Positions 7,322-33,304 of a stretch of DNA of 47,296 nt are shown here, one piece after another. A program made the translations under genes and the position numbers. This stretch comes from Gammaproteobacteria bacterium (lineage in GTDB: Bacteria > Pseudomonadota > Gammaproteobacteria > Steroidobacterales > PWYM01): the NCBI GenBank assembly GCA_003567475.1, contig PWZL01000095.1:1-47296 (forward strand), read 5' to 3'. Under the pieces are notes generated by a model that was given only the letters and a program-made list of their open reading frames with translations, made no database searches and was not told the origin of the DNA. Within the stretch, counting starts at the first letter, position 1. Every line of letters begins with the position of its first letter.

Positions 7322-7365
7322 TGTCTATTCTACATGACACACGCCAATGATCACGTCACGTGACA
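7322..7365. promoter_or_regulatory. Paired PpsR/CrtJ palindromes between crtD and crtE
   Basis: Perfect TGT-N12-ACA at 7322-7339 (inside the longer dyad TGTGTC-N10-GACACA at 7320-7341) and TGA-N12-ACA at 7348-7365, with exactly 8 bp between them. Two palindromes 8 bp apart is the arrangement known for cooperative PpsR/CrtJ binding at bchC-type promoters. The pair sits midway between the divergent crtD and crtE starts, so it could repress both. Confidence 0.8.
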
Positions 7366-9471: not shown

Positions 9472-9515
9472 TGTTAACTTTGCTTGACATCGGCTTTCGT
9501 CAGAGTAAACTGACA
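9472..9515 (+). promoter_or_regulatory. puf promoter overlapped by paired PpsR/CrtJ palindromes
   Basis: Perfect TGT-N12-ACA at 9472-9489 and CGT-N12-ACA at 9498-9515, again with 8 bp between. A sigma70-like promoter lies within: -35 TTGACA at 9484-9489, 16-bp spacer, -10-like TAAACT at 9506-9511. Transcription would start near 9518, leaving a leader of roughly 245 nt before pufB. The 9415-9764 interval holds no convincing gene; it contains the 16-bp repeats, this promoter and the leader. Confidence 0.75.
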
Positions 9516-13399: not shown

Positions 13400-13570
13400 A
13401 TGGAAAACCAAAGAGATGGAGACGATCCGAACCGGGTATGGCCTACGGGCTTGACCCTGCCGGAGTCCGAGGAGCTGCACAAGCACGTTATCGACGGCAG
13501 CCGCGTGTTCTTCGTGATTGCGTTGTTTGCTCACATCCTGGCGTGGATCTACACGCCATGGCTCGGCTGA
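13400..13570 (+). CDS. pucB: LH2-type antenna beta polypeptide
   Basis: 56-residue antenna beta chain. From residue 21 on it resembles LH2 beta chains ([15 protein letters not shown]...AHILAW...TPWLG), not the PufB of this operon. Equivalents of the Rps. acidophila ligands are present: His27 (=H12), Arg35 (=R20, B800 pocket) and His45 (=H30, B850 ligand). It carries an extra acidic N-terminus of about 15 residues. GGAG at about 13389 precedes the ATG. Position directly after pufC is the place where some Chromatiales carry extra pufBA sets; the sequence type here is LH2. Confidence 0.9.
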
Positions 13571-13583
13571 GGGGGGCTGACTC

Positions 13584-13799
13584 ATGAACCAAGGTAGAAT
13601 CTGGCTCGTGGTCCAACCCACGGTAGGGCTGCCACTGTTCCTCGGTACGGTGCTGCTGATCTCGCTGCTCGTGCACTGGTCGGTGCTGTCGAACACCACA
13701 TGGTTTTCGGCGTTCTGGGAGGGTGGCGCAGCGGCGCAGGTGTCGCAGACGGCGGATCAGGACGCGATGCTCGCGGCCAATCGAGAGCTCAGGCCCTAA
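13584..13799 (+). CDS. pucA: LH2-type antenna alpha polypeptide
   Basis: 71-residue antenna alpha chain that follows the Rps. acidophila LH2 alpha pattern residue for residue in number: MNQGRIW N-terminus (Met1 region binds B800), His31 as B850 ligand, TTWF at 38-41, and residues 44-45 are Phe-Trp. In B850 complexes residue 44 is usually Tyr, which hydrogen-bonds B850; Phe here predicts a blue-shifted band. An acidic/Ala-rich tail of about 20 residues follows. A Shine-Dalgarno (GAGGGGGG) lies upstream. It is followed by a strong terminator. Confidence 0.92.
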
Positions 13800-13835
13800 T
13801 CCCGTCAACCCGGCACTGATCTTGTGTGCTGAACG

Positions 13836-13868
13836 GGGAGCGGGATCGCAGGATCCCGCTCCCTTTTT
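13836..13868 (+). terminator. Rho-independent terminator after pucA
   Basis: Perfect 12-bp stem (13836-13847 with 13852-13863), 4-nt loop GCAG, followed by five T at 13864-13868. It closes the pufBALMC-pucBA unit, 24 bp before pucC. Confidence 0.93.
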
Positions 13869-13892: not shown

Positions 13893-15380
13893 ATGAAAAA
13901 AGGCCTGACCACGAAGGCGGTCAACCTCTGGGTGAGCCTGGGGCCGCGTTTCCTCCCGTTCGCCGATGCCGCGTCGGACGACCTGCCGTTGAGCCGTCTG
14001 CTTCGGCTCTCCCTGTTCCAGGTTTCGGTCGGGATGTGTCTGGTGCTGCTGGCGGGCACGCTGAATCGCGTGATGATTGTCGAGCTGGGCGTGCCGGCCT
14101 CGGTGGTCAGCGTGATGATCGCGCTGCCGATTCTGTTCGCCCCCTTCCGCGCCTTCATCGGCTTTCGCTCGGATCAGCATCGCTCCGAACTGGGGTGGCG
14201 CCGTGTGCCGTTCATGTGGAATGGCACGCTGATGCAATTCGGTGGTCTGGCCATCATGCCATTCGCGTTGCTGGTGCTCTCCGGGGGTGGCCAGGCGGGC
14301 GACTATCCCTCGTGGATCGGTCCAGCGGCAGCAGGGCTGTCTTTCCTGCTTATCGGCGCCGGCATGCACACGGTGCAGACGGTCGGCCTCGCCCTGGCGA
14401 CCGACCTTGCGCCGCAGGAGACCCAGCCGAGAGTGGTCGGTCTGATGTATGTCATGCTGCTCCTGGGCATGATCGCGAGCGCGTTGATCTTCGGCGCCCT
14501 GCTGGCCGACTTCACACCGGGTCGTCTCATCCAGGTGGTCCAGGGCGCGGCAGTGGCGACGGTCGCATTGAATGCCGTGGCGCTGTGGAAGCAGGAGACG
14601 CGCCGGCCGCGGCGGTTGCAGACCGAGCCGGCCCCGCAGTTGACGTTCGCCGAAGCCTGGGGGCGGATGAGTCGAGGCGCAGGCGCGATACGCAGCCTTG
14701 TTGCGGTAGGGGTCGGCACCCTGGCCTTCAGCATGGCCGATATCCTGCTCGAACCTTACGGTGGCCAGATTCTTGGCATGACCGTGGCCGAGACCACGCG
14801 TCTGACCGCCATCCTGGCGATGGGCACCCTGATCGGCTTCGCGCTCGCCTCGCGGTTCATGGCCCATGGGGTCGATCCGCTGCGTGTGGCGAGTGTCGGT
14901 GCGATCGTGGGCATCCCCTCGTTTCTCGCGGTGATCCTGTCGGCACCGATGGAGTCCACGGTGTTGTTCACGATGGCGAATTTCGCCATCGGTTTCGGCG
15001 CTGCCCTGTTCAGCCATGGGACGTTGACTTCCACCATGCGCCTCGCACCGCGTGAGCAGTCGGGTCTTGCGCTGGGGGCCTGGGGCTCCGTGCAGGCCAC
15101 CGCGTTGGGCCTGGGCATTGCCTTCAGCGGGATTGCACGCGATGTGGTGACCGCGCTCGGCGTGGGTGCCGAATGGGGCCTGCGTCTGGGCGGCGCGGCG
15201 GCCGGCTACATCGTGGTCTATGGTGTGGAGATCGTGCTGCTGCTGGCCACCGTCATTGTGATGATTCCGCTGCTCGGTCGGCTGCGCGGCTATGCGCTGC
15301 CCGGGTCGTCTCAGGACGCCGACCCCGCTGAAGGCGGACTGGCCCGCCAACCGGCGGGTCAGGCTGCCGGAGGGGGTTGA
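13893..15380 (+). CDS. pucC: PucC-type light-harvesting assembly protein
   Basis: Major-facilitator-like membrane protein of the PucC/LhaA (bacteriochlorophyll delivery) family, 495 residues, about 12 membrane helices. It shares the family N-terminus (GPRFLPFAD...LPLSRLLRLSLFQVSVGM), the LNRVMIVELGVP block and DILLEPYGG with LhaA at 19728-21173. It is needed for assembly of antenna complexes in Rhodobacter. Placement just after the LH2 genes supports the PucC assignment over LhaA. No clear ribosome site precedes ATG 13893, and the terminator lies just upstream, so expression may rely on readthrough or an unseen promoter. A C-terminal soluble tail of about 30 residues is not conserved. Confidence 0.88.
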   Translation: MKKGLTTKAVNLWVSLGPRFLPFADAASDDLPLSRLLRLSLFQVSVGMCLVLLAGTLNRVMIVELGVPASVVSVMIALPILFAPFRAFIGFRSDQHRSELGWRRVPFMWNGTLMQFGGLAIMPFALLVLSGGGQAGDYPSWIGPAAAGLSFLLIGAGMHTVQTVGLALATDLAPQETQPRVVGLMYVMLLLGMIASALIFGALLADFTPGRLIQVVQGAAVATVALNAVALWKQETRRPRRLQTEPAPQLTFAEAWGRMSRGAGAIRSLVAVGVGTLAFSMADILLEPYGGQILGMTVAETTRLTAILAMGTLIGFALASRFMAHGVDPLRVASVGAIVGIPSFLAVILSAPMESTVLFTMANFAIGFGAALFSHGTLTSTMRLAPREQSGLALGAWGSVQATALGLGIAFSGIARDVVTALGVGAEWGLRLGGAAAGYIVVYGVEIVLLLATVIVMIPLLGRLRGYALPGSSQDADPAEGGLARQPAGQAAGGG

Positions 15381-15384
15381 GTCG

Positions 15385-15888
15385 ATGCCGCGTCGTGAGG
15401 TGCTGACCTTCCCGGATCCCCGCCTGCGGCTGAGTTCGCAGCCGGTGGAGGTGTTTGACGCCGAGCTTGCGCAACTGGCCGAGGACCTGCTGGACACCAT
15501 GTACGCCGAACCGGCGATCGGGCTTGCCGCACCACAGGTGAACGTCCAGCGCCGCGTGCTGGTGATGGATGTCTCCGAGACCAGGACACGGCCGGAGGTG
15601 TATGTGAACCCCGAAGTGCTCACGAGTGCGCGCATCGGCTGGATCGAGGAGCGTTGCATGTCCGTGCCCGGCAGAAGTGGTCTGGTCCGGCGTGCCACCG
15701 AGGTCAAGATCCGTGCGCAGACGCTGGCGGGAGAGGCGTTCGAGCGCCGGCTCACCGGTCTCGGCGCGGTCTGCCTCCTGCACGAGCTTGATCACCTCGA
15801 AGGGCGGCTGTTCGTCGACCGGCTCTCGTGGCTGGGTCGACTGCGCTTTCGCGCCGCACTGGCCCTGCAGACGAGGCGTGCGGCATGA
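15385..15888 (+). CDS. def: Peptide deformylase
   Basis: Metallo-hydrolase removing the formyl group from N-terminal Met of new proteins. The 167-residue protein has all three motifs: GLAAPQ at 46-51 (preceded by AI in place of the usual GxG), EERCMS with metal ligand Cys91 (usual EGCLS), and HELDH with His133, Glu134 and His137. A strong GGAGGGGG ribosome site is upstream of the ATG, four bases after the pucC stop. It is not next to fmt, so it may be a second, accessory deformylase co-expressed with the photosynthesis genes; formyl-Met processing matters for antenna chains whose Met1 binds pigment. That link is inference. Confidence 0.88.
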   Translation: MPRREVLTFPDPRLRLSSQPVEVFDAELAQLAEDLLDTMYAEPAIGLAAPQVNVQRRVLVMDVSETRTRPEVYVNPEVLTSARIGWIEERCMSVPGRSGLVRRATEVKIRAQTLAGEAFERRLTGLGAVCLLHELDHLEGRLFVDRLSWLGRLRFRAALALQTRRAA

Positions 15889-16018
15889 CCCGCCTCGCGC
15901 ACATCGCTTCACAAGCCATCAAGCCCCCGGTATGCTCGACGTGCACGCGCTTCCTGCGGCACCGGTCGCCGAGGCCACGGATTTCATCAGTCATCTTGCT
16001 TGGCAGGGAGGTATGCCA

Positions 16019-16765
16019 GTGATCCACCCTATCGTTAGGCTGTATGCCAGCGCCGACAACGCTCAGGCGGCCGTCGGTAAACTCCAGGCGCGTGGCTTCG
16101 GCGCCCGGCAATACGATCTCGTCACGCCCCCGGAGTCACCGGCGGACGGCGCCGCGGCAGAGGAAACAGTCACCGCTGCGATCGCCGACGCTTATGTCGT
16201 CCGCGGCGAGGCCCGACGGTATGCCCGGCGGGTCCTGGACGGTCACTGGCTGGTGATCGTACGCGCGCCGATTGGTATGGGGCGGATCACCGAAGATCTG
16301 CTCGATGAGTGTGAGCCGGTGCCCAGTGGCTTCGAGCCCGAACCCGATCGTCTCATGGCCTGGGATGAAGCCGCGCCAATGAGCTCGATTCTGCATGTCG
16401 GGACCATCCTGCGCGACCCCACGCCGTTCTCGAACTGGATGGCCGGCATTCCCGTGCTCTCACGCAGTGGCAAGCGCACCTGCGAGCGGCTCAACATCCC
16501 TGAACTGGCCGATTCCAGCTGGACGCTCTCCGGGAAAGTCGGGCTTAAGCTGCTGTCAAAGGGGGCGGCCCCGTTGTCAGGAAAACTCAAGTGGCCGTTG
16601 CTCTCCAAGGGTCCGGCACCACTGTCGAGCAAGCTCAAGTGGCCGCTGCTCTCGGGCGGCCCGGCGCCGCTGTCATCCAAGCTCGGTTTGCCTGTGTTGA
16701 GTGGCAAAGCGGCGCCGCTGTCTTCGTCGCTGCGCATTCCGACGACCACACCACGCCGCGACTGA
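16019..16765 (+). CDS. Uncharacterised protein with five 16-residue repeats
   Basis: Protein of 248 residues. GTG 16019 is chosen because GGGAGG at 16006-16011 is 7 nt upstream, whereas the in-frame ATG at 16013 is only 1 nt from it. Residues 1-60 (VRLYASADNAQAAVGKLQ, then RGF) resemble the alpha/beta 'YflT/general stress' small domain. A middle section holds DPTPFSNWMAGIPVLSRSGK. From about residue 166 to the end come five 16-residue units with the pattern APLSxKLxxPLLSxG (48-bp DNA period, 16514-16753). It lies between def and convergent puhE inside the PGC. Function unknown; the amphipathic repeats suggest membrane or pigment-protein contact, but that is speculation. Confidence 0.75.
   Translation: MIHPIVRLYASADNAQAAVGKLQARGFGARQYDLVTPPESPADGAAAEETVTAAIADAYVVRGEARRYARRVLDGHWLVIVRAPIGMGRITEDLLDECEPVPSGFEPEPDRLMAWDEAAPMSSILHVGTILRDPTPFSNWMAGIPVLSRSGKRTCERLNIPELADSSWTLSGKVGLKLLSKGAAPLSGKLKWPLLSKGPAPLSSKLKWPLLSGGPAPLSSKLGLPVLSGKAAPLSSSLRIPTTTPRRD
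16514..16753 (+). repeat. 48-bp tandem repeat inside the repeat-protein gene
   Basis: Five in-frame units of 48 bp starting at 16514, 16562, 16610, 16658 and 16706. The second and third are the most alike at the protein level (16562: GAAPLSGKLKWPLLSK; 16610: GPAPLSSKLKWPLLSG). The outer units have drifted, which argues that the repeat is old and maintained at protein level. Confidence 0.85.
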
Positions 16766-16812: not shown

Positions 16813-17634
16813 TCAGCTTCTGATCTTGACCTGACCGGGATCCGGAGACTGCCCGCTGCCGGGCAGTTCTTCCTGTTGGCGTGAGCGGAAACCCCAGCGA
16901 AACAGGGCGTCGATGGTCACTGGCAGCACCAGAAACCAATGCTCGATGATGCCCAGCGCGAGCAGCGTCCCCACCAGGAAGAGCCCGGCCGTCAGATGCT
17001 CGGGCACGTCCGGTGCCAGTGCCGCTCGAAAGACCAGGAAGGTCGCCGCGGTGGCGGCCGTAATGGAAAACGGAAACAACCAGTTCATCGGCCGGCGCTT
17101 GAAATAGCTCTCCAGATACCGCAATCGCAGCGGCAGCCAGTTCTCGCTGAGGTTCCGCACGCCCAGAAAGATGTTCAGTTTGGTGCTCAGACGCATCAGC
17201 CAGAGCGCGCTGAAGGTCCATAGCGCCACCGGATTACTGGCGCCCCAGGTGAGCGCCATCACGGCCAGCAATGCCGCGAACAGCGTCAGCTCGTGATGCG
17301 AGAGCGCCTGCCACGCGTAGCCGAAGCGACGCCATCCGCGCGCGCCGGGCGGCAGCGCCGTGCGCCGCGAACCCGTGATGAAGCCAAGCAGAAAACTCAT
17401 CTCCACCCAGCCCCAGAAGAGCAGGGCGCAGCTGAAGGCGCCATAGGTCGCGAACAGCGTCTCCTGTTGACTGAAGGCCGCGATCCCCCACAGTGCGGGC
17501 AGGGCGACCAGCGTGGCGCCGAACAGGCTCCATCGATAGGTGCGCTCAGGCAAACCGTCGAGGTAGAGAATGAGCCCGGTGCTGAACCACCAAAGGAGCA
17601 GCGCAAACAGCACAGGCGCGAGAATCGTGCTCAT
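16813..17634 (-). CDS. puhE: Photosynthetic complex assembly protein PuhE (DUF3623)
   Basis: PuhE is a polytopic membrane protein of the puh operon that affects reaction-centre and bacteriochlorophyll levels in Rhodobacter. The 273-residue protein has about seven hydrophobic segments, the FWGWVEMSFLLGF block and KLNIFLGVRNLSENWLP, which I associate with DUF3623. ATG 17634 is picked as the first Met before the first membrane helix; GGAG is directly adjacent, an unusually short spacing. Last gene of lhaA-puhA-B-C-E. In many PGCs acsF lies between puhC and puhE; here only 31 bp separate them. Confidence 0.88.
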   Translation of the reverse strand: MSTILAPVLFALLLWWFSTGLILYLDGLPERTYRWSLFGATLVALPALWGIAAFSQQETLFATYGAFSCALLFWGWVEMSFLLGFITGSRRTALPPGARGWRRFGYAWQALSHHELTLFAALLAVMALTWGASNPVALWTFSALWLMRLSTKLNIFLGVRNLSENWLPLRLRYLESYFKRRPMNWLFPFSITAATAATFLVFRAALAPDVPEHLTAGLFLVGTLLALGIIEHWFLVLPVTIDALFRWGFRSRQQEELPGSGQSPDPGQVKIRS

Positions 17635-17665
17635 CTCCAGTGCCAGGGCAGCCGACGGCGGGCCG

Positions 17666-18130
17666 TCAGCGCTGCTCCGTCTGCGACGCGCTGGCAAGCA
17701 GCCGTGCGAAGGCCACTGTGTTATCCGGGCCGAATGCCGCGAGCTCGATCCAGCGGCCGGTCTCGGGATCGTCCAGCGTCAGGCGACCATCCGACCAGTA
17801 TTGCAGCCGATAGGGCGGCTCCGCGCCGACATTGCGCGCCCGTCGCTCCCTGGCCATCCCTCGCATGACGCCGCGCACAAAGCCGTGGGTGCCCGGGTCG
17901 AGGACGCTGACTTCACGACCGCGGAGGTCGTAGACCACCACTGCGCCATCGTAGCGGTCTTCAAACCGCAGCTCTTCGCTCTGGAGCACATAGGCATCGG
18001 GGTCCCGGCTGTCGCTGATCACGCCGCCCGAACTGCGGAAAATCGCAACGGCGACCACCAGGGCCAGCATTGCCGCCACGCCGTACCAGGGGCCACGGGA
18101 TGTGGGCGGCCTATCCGTTTGCTCGCTCAT
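17666..18130 (-). CDS. puhC: Photosynthetic complex assembly protein PuhC
   Basis: PuhC helps build the LH1-reaction-centre core in Rhodobacter. The 154-residue protein has one N-terminal membrane helix (about residues 15-31) followed by a soluble domain with EELRFEDRYDGAVVVYDLRG, LDPGTHGFVRGVMRGMARERR and a final 'GPDNTVAFARLL' segment, the usual PuhC pattern. AGAGGTG precedes ATG 18130. It lies between puhB and puhE in the minus-strand puh operon. Confidence 0.9.
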   Translation of the reverse strand: MSEQTDRPPTSRGPWYGVAAMLALVVAVAIFRSSGGVISDSRDPDAYVLQSEELRFEDRYDGAVVVYDLRGREVSVLDPGTHGFVRGVMRGMARERRARNVGAEPPYRLQYWSDGRLTLDDPETGRWIELAAFGPDNTVAFARLLASASQTEQR

Positions 18131-21851: not shown

Positions 21852-21878
21852 GACCGACACTGTCGGTCGATAGAGACA
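21852..21878 (+). promoter_or_regulatory. aerR operator: PpsR palindrome overlapping a perfect dyad
   Basis: Perfect TGT-N12-ACA at 21861-21878. The left half overlaps a perfect 17-bp dyad, 8-bp arms GACCGACA/TGTCGGTC with a single central C (21852-21868). It ends 16 nt before the aerR ATG, so a bound repressor would block transcription into aerR. It suggests PpsR control of its own antirepressor; binding is inferred. Confidence 0.6.
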
Positions 21879-33260: not shown

Positions 33261-33304
33261 TGTAAACTTTGTATTACACCTGCGGGCGTATTGCAAGCTT
33301 GACA
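33261..33304 (-). promoter_or_regulatory. Paired PpsR/CrtJ palindromes upstream of the third pucC gene
   Basis: Perfect TGT-N12-ACA at 33261-33278 and CGT-N12-ACA at 33287-33304 with exactly 8 bp between. In minus-strand reading a -35-like TTGCAA and a -10-like TACAAA are 17 bp apart within this block. The nearest palindrome ends 25 bp before the gene start. Confidence 0.75.

Follow-up and report, generated by a model that had tools for sequence, protein, structure and literature searches.

LH2, which forms the outer light-harvesting ring in purple bacteria, is a much-studied membrane antenna whose usual description comprises the alpha and beta polypeptides and PucC. PucE of Rba. capsulatus, encoded in pucBACDE, is a 14-kDa peripheral LH2 subunit; PucD and PucE of this organism have about 113 and 118 codons, respectively. 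The pucBACDE arrangement has been termed the typical LH2 cluster (PMC9231093), and PucC is required for efficient LH2 assembly (PMC4949548). In Rps. palustris, a further polypeptide, LH2-gamma, forms an extended six-repeat ribbon close to the cytoplasmic side, in which the Ser of each repeat ligates one BChl; its authors found it in Rhodopseudomonas only (PMC9618040). The deposited LH2-gamma chain (PDB 7ZCU, 7ZDI, 7ZE3, 7ZE8) has a period of 16 residues with an identity of 0.76, and its gene, RPA1495, is three locus numbers away from pucBAe (RPA1491-1492).

The stretch of DNA analysed here (47,296 nucleotides, hereafter the window) contains a photosynthesis gene cluster with pufLMC followed by an LH2 operon, pucB-pucA-pucC-def-gene, whose last member, the gene after def, encodes a protein with a repeat tail. 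The genes puhE, puhC, puhB, puhA and lhaA are convergent to it. Its position between def and puhE, reported in the first-pass annotation, was confirmed, and the features of the locus are as follows:

13400-13567, plus strand: pucB, LH2 beta polypeptide (LH2-type beta, VWPTGLT...H...PWLG)
13584-13799, plus strand: pucA, LH2 alpha polypeptide (...H...LSNTTW)
13835-13864, plus strand: strong terminator-like stem-loop between pucA and pucC, 13 pairs and then a T run (consensus scan only)
13893-15380, plus strand: pucC, LH2 assembly/bacteriochlorophyll delivery protein, 58-67% identical to pucC of gene-holding puc clusters in other genera
15385-15888, plus strand: def, peptide deformylase paralogue of the puc operon; most such operons have a def of 46-61% identity after pucC
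16005-16011, plus strand: ribosome-binding site AGGGAGG (from reading the sequence)
16013-16765 (or from GTG 16019), plus strand: LH2-operon repeat-tail protein
16013-16333, plus strand: predicted N-terminal YflT-like domain of ferredoxin type, b-a-b-a-a-b-a (AlphaFold; Pfam YflT in relatives)
16334-16525, plus strand: linker with the single motifs AAPMSSILHVGTIL and DPTPFSNWMAGIPVLS; the APFS..LGLPVL motif is conserved among relatives
16526-16765, plus strand: tail of five 16-residue units (first and last degenerate), basic, predicted to be disordered
16813-17697, minus strand: puhE, convergent neighbour at the end of the puh operon

The open frame ends with a stop codon at 16763-16765 and offers two in-frame starts, GTG 16019, chosen at first pass, and ATG 16013, two codons upstream, which give products of 248 and 250 residues, respectively. 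The ribosome-binding site is located 7 nt before GTG 16019, a better spacing than that for the ATG. Two same-genus orthologues were identified in gammaproteobacterial MAG records (RECU01000057 and SKYU01000189; identity 81-88%), one of which is shorter by exactly one 16-residue unit. The dN/dS values of the window sequence versus these two were 0.08-0.13 for the whole gene and 0.11-0.18 for the repeats, and those among all three sequences 0.08-0.15 and 0.11-0.26, respectively. These values and the loss of one unit demonstrate that the gene is real and under purifying selection, with a variable number of repeats. The window protein was assigned to no family by Pfam, NCBIfam or PHROGs, the PDB sequence look-up gave a single chance match (E 0.34), and an Rfam scan of the window had no match.

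The C-terminal tandem array pointed out at first pass is real: residues 172-250 (the last 79 residues) repeat with a period of 16, and the lag-16 identity over a 72-residue core is 0.73, as compared with a maximum of 0.42 in 20,000 shuffles. Inside the unit there is a sub-period of 8 (half-units PLLSKGPA and PLSSKLKW). The initial count of 'five APLSxKL units' was slightly generous: five 16-residue units exist, starting with LSGKVGLK, LSGKLKWP, LSSKLKWP, LSSKLGLP and LSSSLRIP, but unit 1 is degenerate (WT before it and KV in place of KL), and so is unit 5, which has SL in place of KL and decays after 8 residues. Every unit contains a Ser, and units 1-4 are more alike as protein (9-14 of 16 residues) than as DNA (23-35 of 48 bases). 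The description of the array as 'fold-prone' was not borne out, as the tail is predicted to be disordered, with a mean pLDDT of about 26 in a full-protein structure prediction based on a shallow alignment of three close sequences.

The N-domain, modelled alone with AlphaFold (pLDDT 84.9, pTM 0.78), has the predicted element order b-a-b-a-a-b-a. Its nearest solved shapes are those of the ActD subunit (DUF3341) of alternative complex III, with VIA-align Z scores of 7.0-7.9 (6LOD, 8K9E and 6BTM chain D), followed by PII-like proteins (Z about 6-7). Matches to ferredoxin-like chains reach only Z 6-8. Structural matches with Z <8 may reflect a common arrangement only, and ActD, although similar to the N-domain in predicted fold, belongs to a different complex. 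In Foldseek searches, neither model had a counterpart with E ≤0.001. The window protein has no Pfam match of its own, and its tie to YflT (PF11181), a family of heat-induced stress protein, runs through profile alignment with its relatives; 5 of 13 family members match YflT at some level, and the relative from G320 is above the curated cut-off (26.3 versus 26.2 bits). By this profile comparison, the N-domain is related to YflT, which agrees with the 'small stress-like domain' noticed earlier. The two families have a related N-terminal domain; common YflT proteins carry a glycine-rich insert, which the LH2-operon proteins lack, and the latter possess an LH2-linked, mostly basic, mostly repetitive tail.

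Relatives were sought with a family profile built from the window protein in some 1,000 genomes of Gamma- and Alphaproteobacteria, comprising order-, class- and phylum-level sets. They are only about 24-43% identical; their shared features are the N-domain, the APFSxxLGLPVL motif of the linker and a tail that is mostly repetitive. A tailed protein was found in 17 of the roughly 1,000 genomes: 11 at the order level, one at the class level (G651) and five at the phylum level (G707, G1000, G864, G888 and G918). Weak matches without a tail were left out by judgement after reading each sequence; they are visibly different, having a glycine-rich insert or another extension. Those from G298, G346, G364, G371, G420, G432 and G565, along with most phylum-level weak matches, were mostly tail-less YflT proteins, and the weak profile match in G240 was a chance overlap. 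A genus that we call 'Rhodobacteraceae-like' (g426), a label inferred from the sequences, was added to the comparison. Plasmids, searched with two Rhodobacteraceae-like members as well as the window protein, contained no relative, and neither did viral contigs in a scan; two pucC-like plasmid matches, on examination, were lhaA of photosynthesis clusters with no adjoining LH2 genes. The open-access literature searched contains no description of the family. The family, a previously unnamed probable partner of LH2, is absent from the curated libraries searched.

Of 23 proteins examined, 18 contain significant tandem repeats, whose units measure 12, 13, 14, 15, 16, 25 or about 30 (30-32) residues, exemplified by NYNLSFGIPRLQR, KVGMSTLTDNPAPLSS, SGRVSPGAISRL and MAKFPFAHLVPGHKF; some Rhodobacteraceae-like members have a basic tail with no significant repeats. 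In most members, almost all units have a Ser in register. The tail pI exceeds 10 in 21 of 22 family proteins, the exception being G651, whose tail is not basic (net charge -1); the N-domain is usually acidic, and none of the 22 contains a hydrophobic stretch sufficient for a membrane helix. Repeat sequence turns over between lineages while tail chemistry stays alike, making the family a clear case of fast tandem-repeat turnover, with units from 12 to about 30 residues.

Homologues are not common in non-phototrophs, the occurrence that the first-pass annotation had set against its proposal of a role in photosynthetic membranes: reaction-centre L/M genes were identified in 17 of 17 genomes with a tailed protein. 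In the order sample, 55 of 396 genomes have reaction-centre genes, and all 11 carriers are among them (p 1.5e-10, a value overstated, as are the others, by uneven sampling and non-independence of related genomes); the genus-level count is safer, with carriers in 8 of 16 reaction-centre-positive versus 0 of 56 reaction-centre-negative genera (p 1e-6). This phototroph-only distribution supports the proposed role, but the association is with LH2 (pucBA) and not with puhE or phototrophy at large. Using an LH2-type beta profile that scores LH2 at E <1e-20 and LH1 beta at E about 1e-4 to 1e-11, we found 14 of the 55 order phototrophs to be LH2-positive; they include 11 of 11 carriers, and none of the 41 others carries the gene (p 3e-9 at the genome level). 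In one genome, G104, LH2 beta is cut off by the contig end. The same distribution is seen within genera: in that of the window, LH2 and the gene occur together in G003 and G004, whereas the phototrophs G001 and G002 have neither, and in g426 the gene is present in 8 of 13 genomes, exactly the eight with LH2. Together with this genus, 23 of 23 carriers possess LH2-type beta genes, while 0 of 51 sampled LH2-negative genomes of phototroph lineages carry the gene. Phylum-level phototrophs with generic YflT only (G716, G824, G832, G848 and G951) have LH1 only.

That a general stress-type (YflT) protein is a mere hitch-hiker in the photosynthesis gene cluster is therefore highly improbable. Its YflT-like N-domain would allow for it, as would the generic YflT proteins with glycine-rich inserts in many non-phototrophs, but the latter are tail-less, with 13 of 18 tested genomes that encode them lacking reaction centres, and it is the tailed form that tracks LH2 across classes and rearrangements. 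No copy was detectable in three LH2-positive genomes (G192, G372 and G335), although a homologue might be missed at such divergence; the gene thus appears not to be essential for LH2 in general. G192 (L121) and G372 (L122) have pucBAC with no def, and in G335 (L123) the contig ends within pucC, with no puc-linked def seen.

Same-strand linkage to puc genes occurs in four orders: pucBAC-def-gene in the window's genus; pucBA-gene-pucC-def in G108, G149, G651 and G707, from both Gamma- and Alphaproteobacteria; gene-pucBAC-def in G083, G320 and G377; and, at the Rhodobacteraceae-like loci L105-L108 (G864, G888, G918 and G1000), pucBAC-gene, in one case with a pair of genes. Six further g426 genomes also have pucB and the gene on one strand, the gene about 2 kb further downstream. 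Repeated linkage in differing orders supports a shared job better than would one conserved order, and a family that tracks LH2 almost perfectly over two proteobacterial classes and four puc arrangements suggests that a part of LH2 biology has been missed.

Direct placement after pucC is confined to L105-L108, where the gene or gene pair holds the position of PucD/PucE; in the window def lies between, and members from other genera are encoded ahead of pucC or pucB. This position, pucBACDE being the order described as typical for LH2, and the LH2-specificity shared with PucD/PucE would be expected if the family were a divergent form of the Rba. capsulatus proteins. We give this little credence, as the members found have 190-350 residues, about twice the length of PucD and PucE, and a genus-wide search revealed no short form; PucE could still be a short relative, the comparison here covering position and length.

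Some members are placed away from the puc operon. In G011, G024 and G379 the gene is apart from puc, with pucBAC-def elsewhere in the genome. G011 (L011 8993-12034) and G024 (L012 6973-10008) each have two tandem copies with 13-residue NYNLSFGIPRLQR repeats, and G379 (L089 11307-12359) has the longest array seen, about 22 units of 12 residues (ISRLSGRVSPGA), near a contig end. Second copies of about 350 aa were identified in G1016:C1 and G864:C1 (L137 and L138), on contigs other than the puc-linked ones; their MAKFPFAHLVPGHKF-type repeats contain His instead of Ser.

The N-terminal net charge of LH2 beta is -2 to -4 (LH1 beta, -2). A soluble protein that is made with LH2 and whose tail is basic and multivalent would be drawn to this acidic cytoplasmic face or to the anionic lipids there. 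We favour, with confidence evenly poised, a cytoplasmic accessory factor dedicated to LH2, with its tail on the cytoplasmic side contacting several units or rings. The protein, made from the LH2 (puc) operon, would consist of a small acidic YflT-like domain and a long disordered, mostly basic repeat tail, in which each repeat combines a core of hydrophobic residues and proline with a Ser (or His). Most likely the tail would run along the cytoplasmic side of LH2, near the LH2 beta N-termini and lipid head groups, where it might engage several alpha/beta units or rings at once and might stabilise, cap or organise LH2 once PucC has aided assembly; the N-domain could serve as a grip, limit size or bind a partner. 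LH2 binding, multivalency and an effect on LH2 are all what we infer, and a purely electrostatic mechanism is weakened by the net charge of the G651 tail.

Basic, disordered and multivalent tails of variable length on proteins with no membrane spans might also befit an organiser of membranes and not of single rings, which would bridge LH2 arrays or anionic lipid and thereby pack or curve photosynthetic membranes, and the tandem duplicates in G011 and G024 are in keeping with this. Yet LH2-free phototrophs, which have photosynthetic membranes as well, lack the gene, making such a role quite unlikely.

Mean N-domain identity across the puc-linked loci is 29%, versus 65% for PucC and 71% for PucB, which indicates fast evolution of the repeat-tail protein, common for accessory proteins; N-domain distances correlate with pucC distances (Mantel 10/5000). 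Among the BCD-family light-harvesting assembly proteins (PucC/LhaA), PucC is co-operonic with the gene and serves LH2, but is an integral membrane protein with no sequence relation to the family. The gene product could nevertheless act outside mature LH2 as an assembly factor with PucC and the puc-linked deformylase, recruiting nascent alpha/beta or docking on PucC. The need for PucC in efficient assembly speaks for this, as does the position of the gene, which most linked loci have beside pucC or pucC-def. So too does the stem between pucA and pucC, a consensus match only, which suggests that it could set a high pucBA versus a low pucC-def-gene output. We nonetheless rate an assembly factor as rather unlikely, considering that three LH2 genomes lack the gene and that arrays as long as that of G379, with about 22 units, are more scaffold-like than chaperone-like.

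LH2-gamma invites the closest comparison with the dedicated accessory factor proposed above, as both proteins are encoded near puc genes and have repeats of 16 residues in which the positions of Pro-Leu and Ser are fixed. The tail might then wrap the outer cytoplasmic rim of one ring, with approximately one repeat per alpha/beta pair and Ser/His ligating an extra BChl, for which the pigmented gamma ribbon, encoded close to pucBAe, is a precedent and to which the in-register Ser of most members would correspond. However, we detected no sequence homology above scrambled controls: summed local alignment scores were matched by 41 of 300 register-scrambled gammas, with the repeat profile, 2 of 100 scrambled gammas outscored genuine gamma, and a PDB search with the repeat profile had no match. 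Moreover, one Ser per 16 residues is not a family-wide pattern, since periods of 12, 13, 14, 25 and 30-32 occur in other members and His replaces Ser in G1016b. LH2-gamma (97 aa) lacks the N-domain, and its repeats include E and K, whereas most tails of the LH2-operon family are poor in acidic residues. By this comparison, the two may be alike in working but would not be one family; the gamma-like arrangement is unlikely, and the window protein may possibly bind pigment. A wider proposition, that LH2 antennas of Proteobacteria widely have a third, repeat-built, puc-encoded polypeptide, a two-domain counterpart of the supposedly Rhodopseudomonas-only LH2-gamma, with a fast-evolving tail that follows the cytoplasmic rim of the ring and in some lineages binds extra BChl, seems doubtful to us; were it true, many alpha/beta-only models of LH2 would be short of one subunit.

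The neighbouring def follows pucC also at L084, L085, L086, L087, L090, L091, L104, L125, L126 and L127, and a puc-linked def is absent from G192, G372 and the Rhodobacteraceae-like loci. In LH2 of Rba. sphaeroides, the carboxylated N-terminus of alpha Met1 ligates B800 (PMC8775250); the puc-linked deformylase is a candidate that might deformylate LH2 alpha Met1. The window is furthermore enriched in TGT-N12-ACA sites of the PpsR/CrtJ type, with 12 versus 4.3 expected, a count reached in 0 of 100 shuffles. None of these 12 is just upstream of pucB; examples are located at 7322-7339, 9472-9489, 21861-21878 and 33261-33278.
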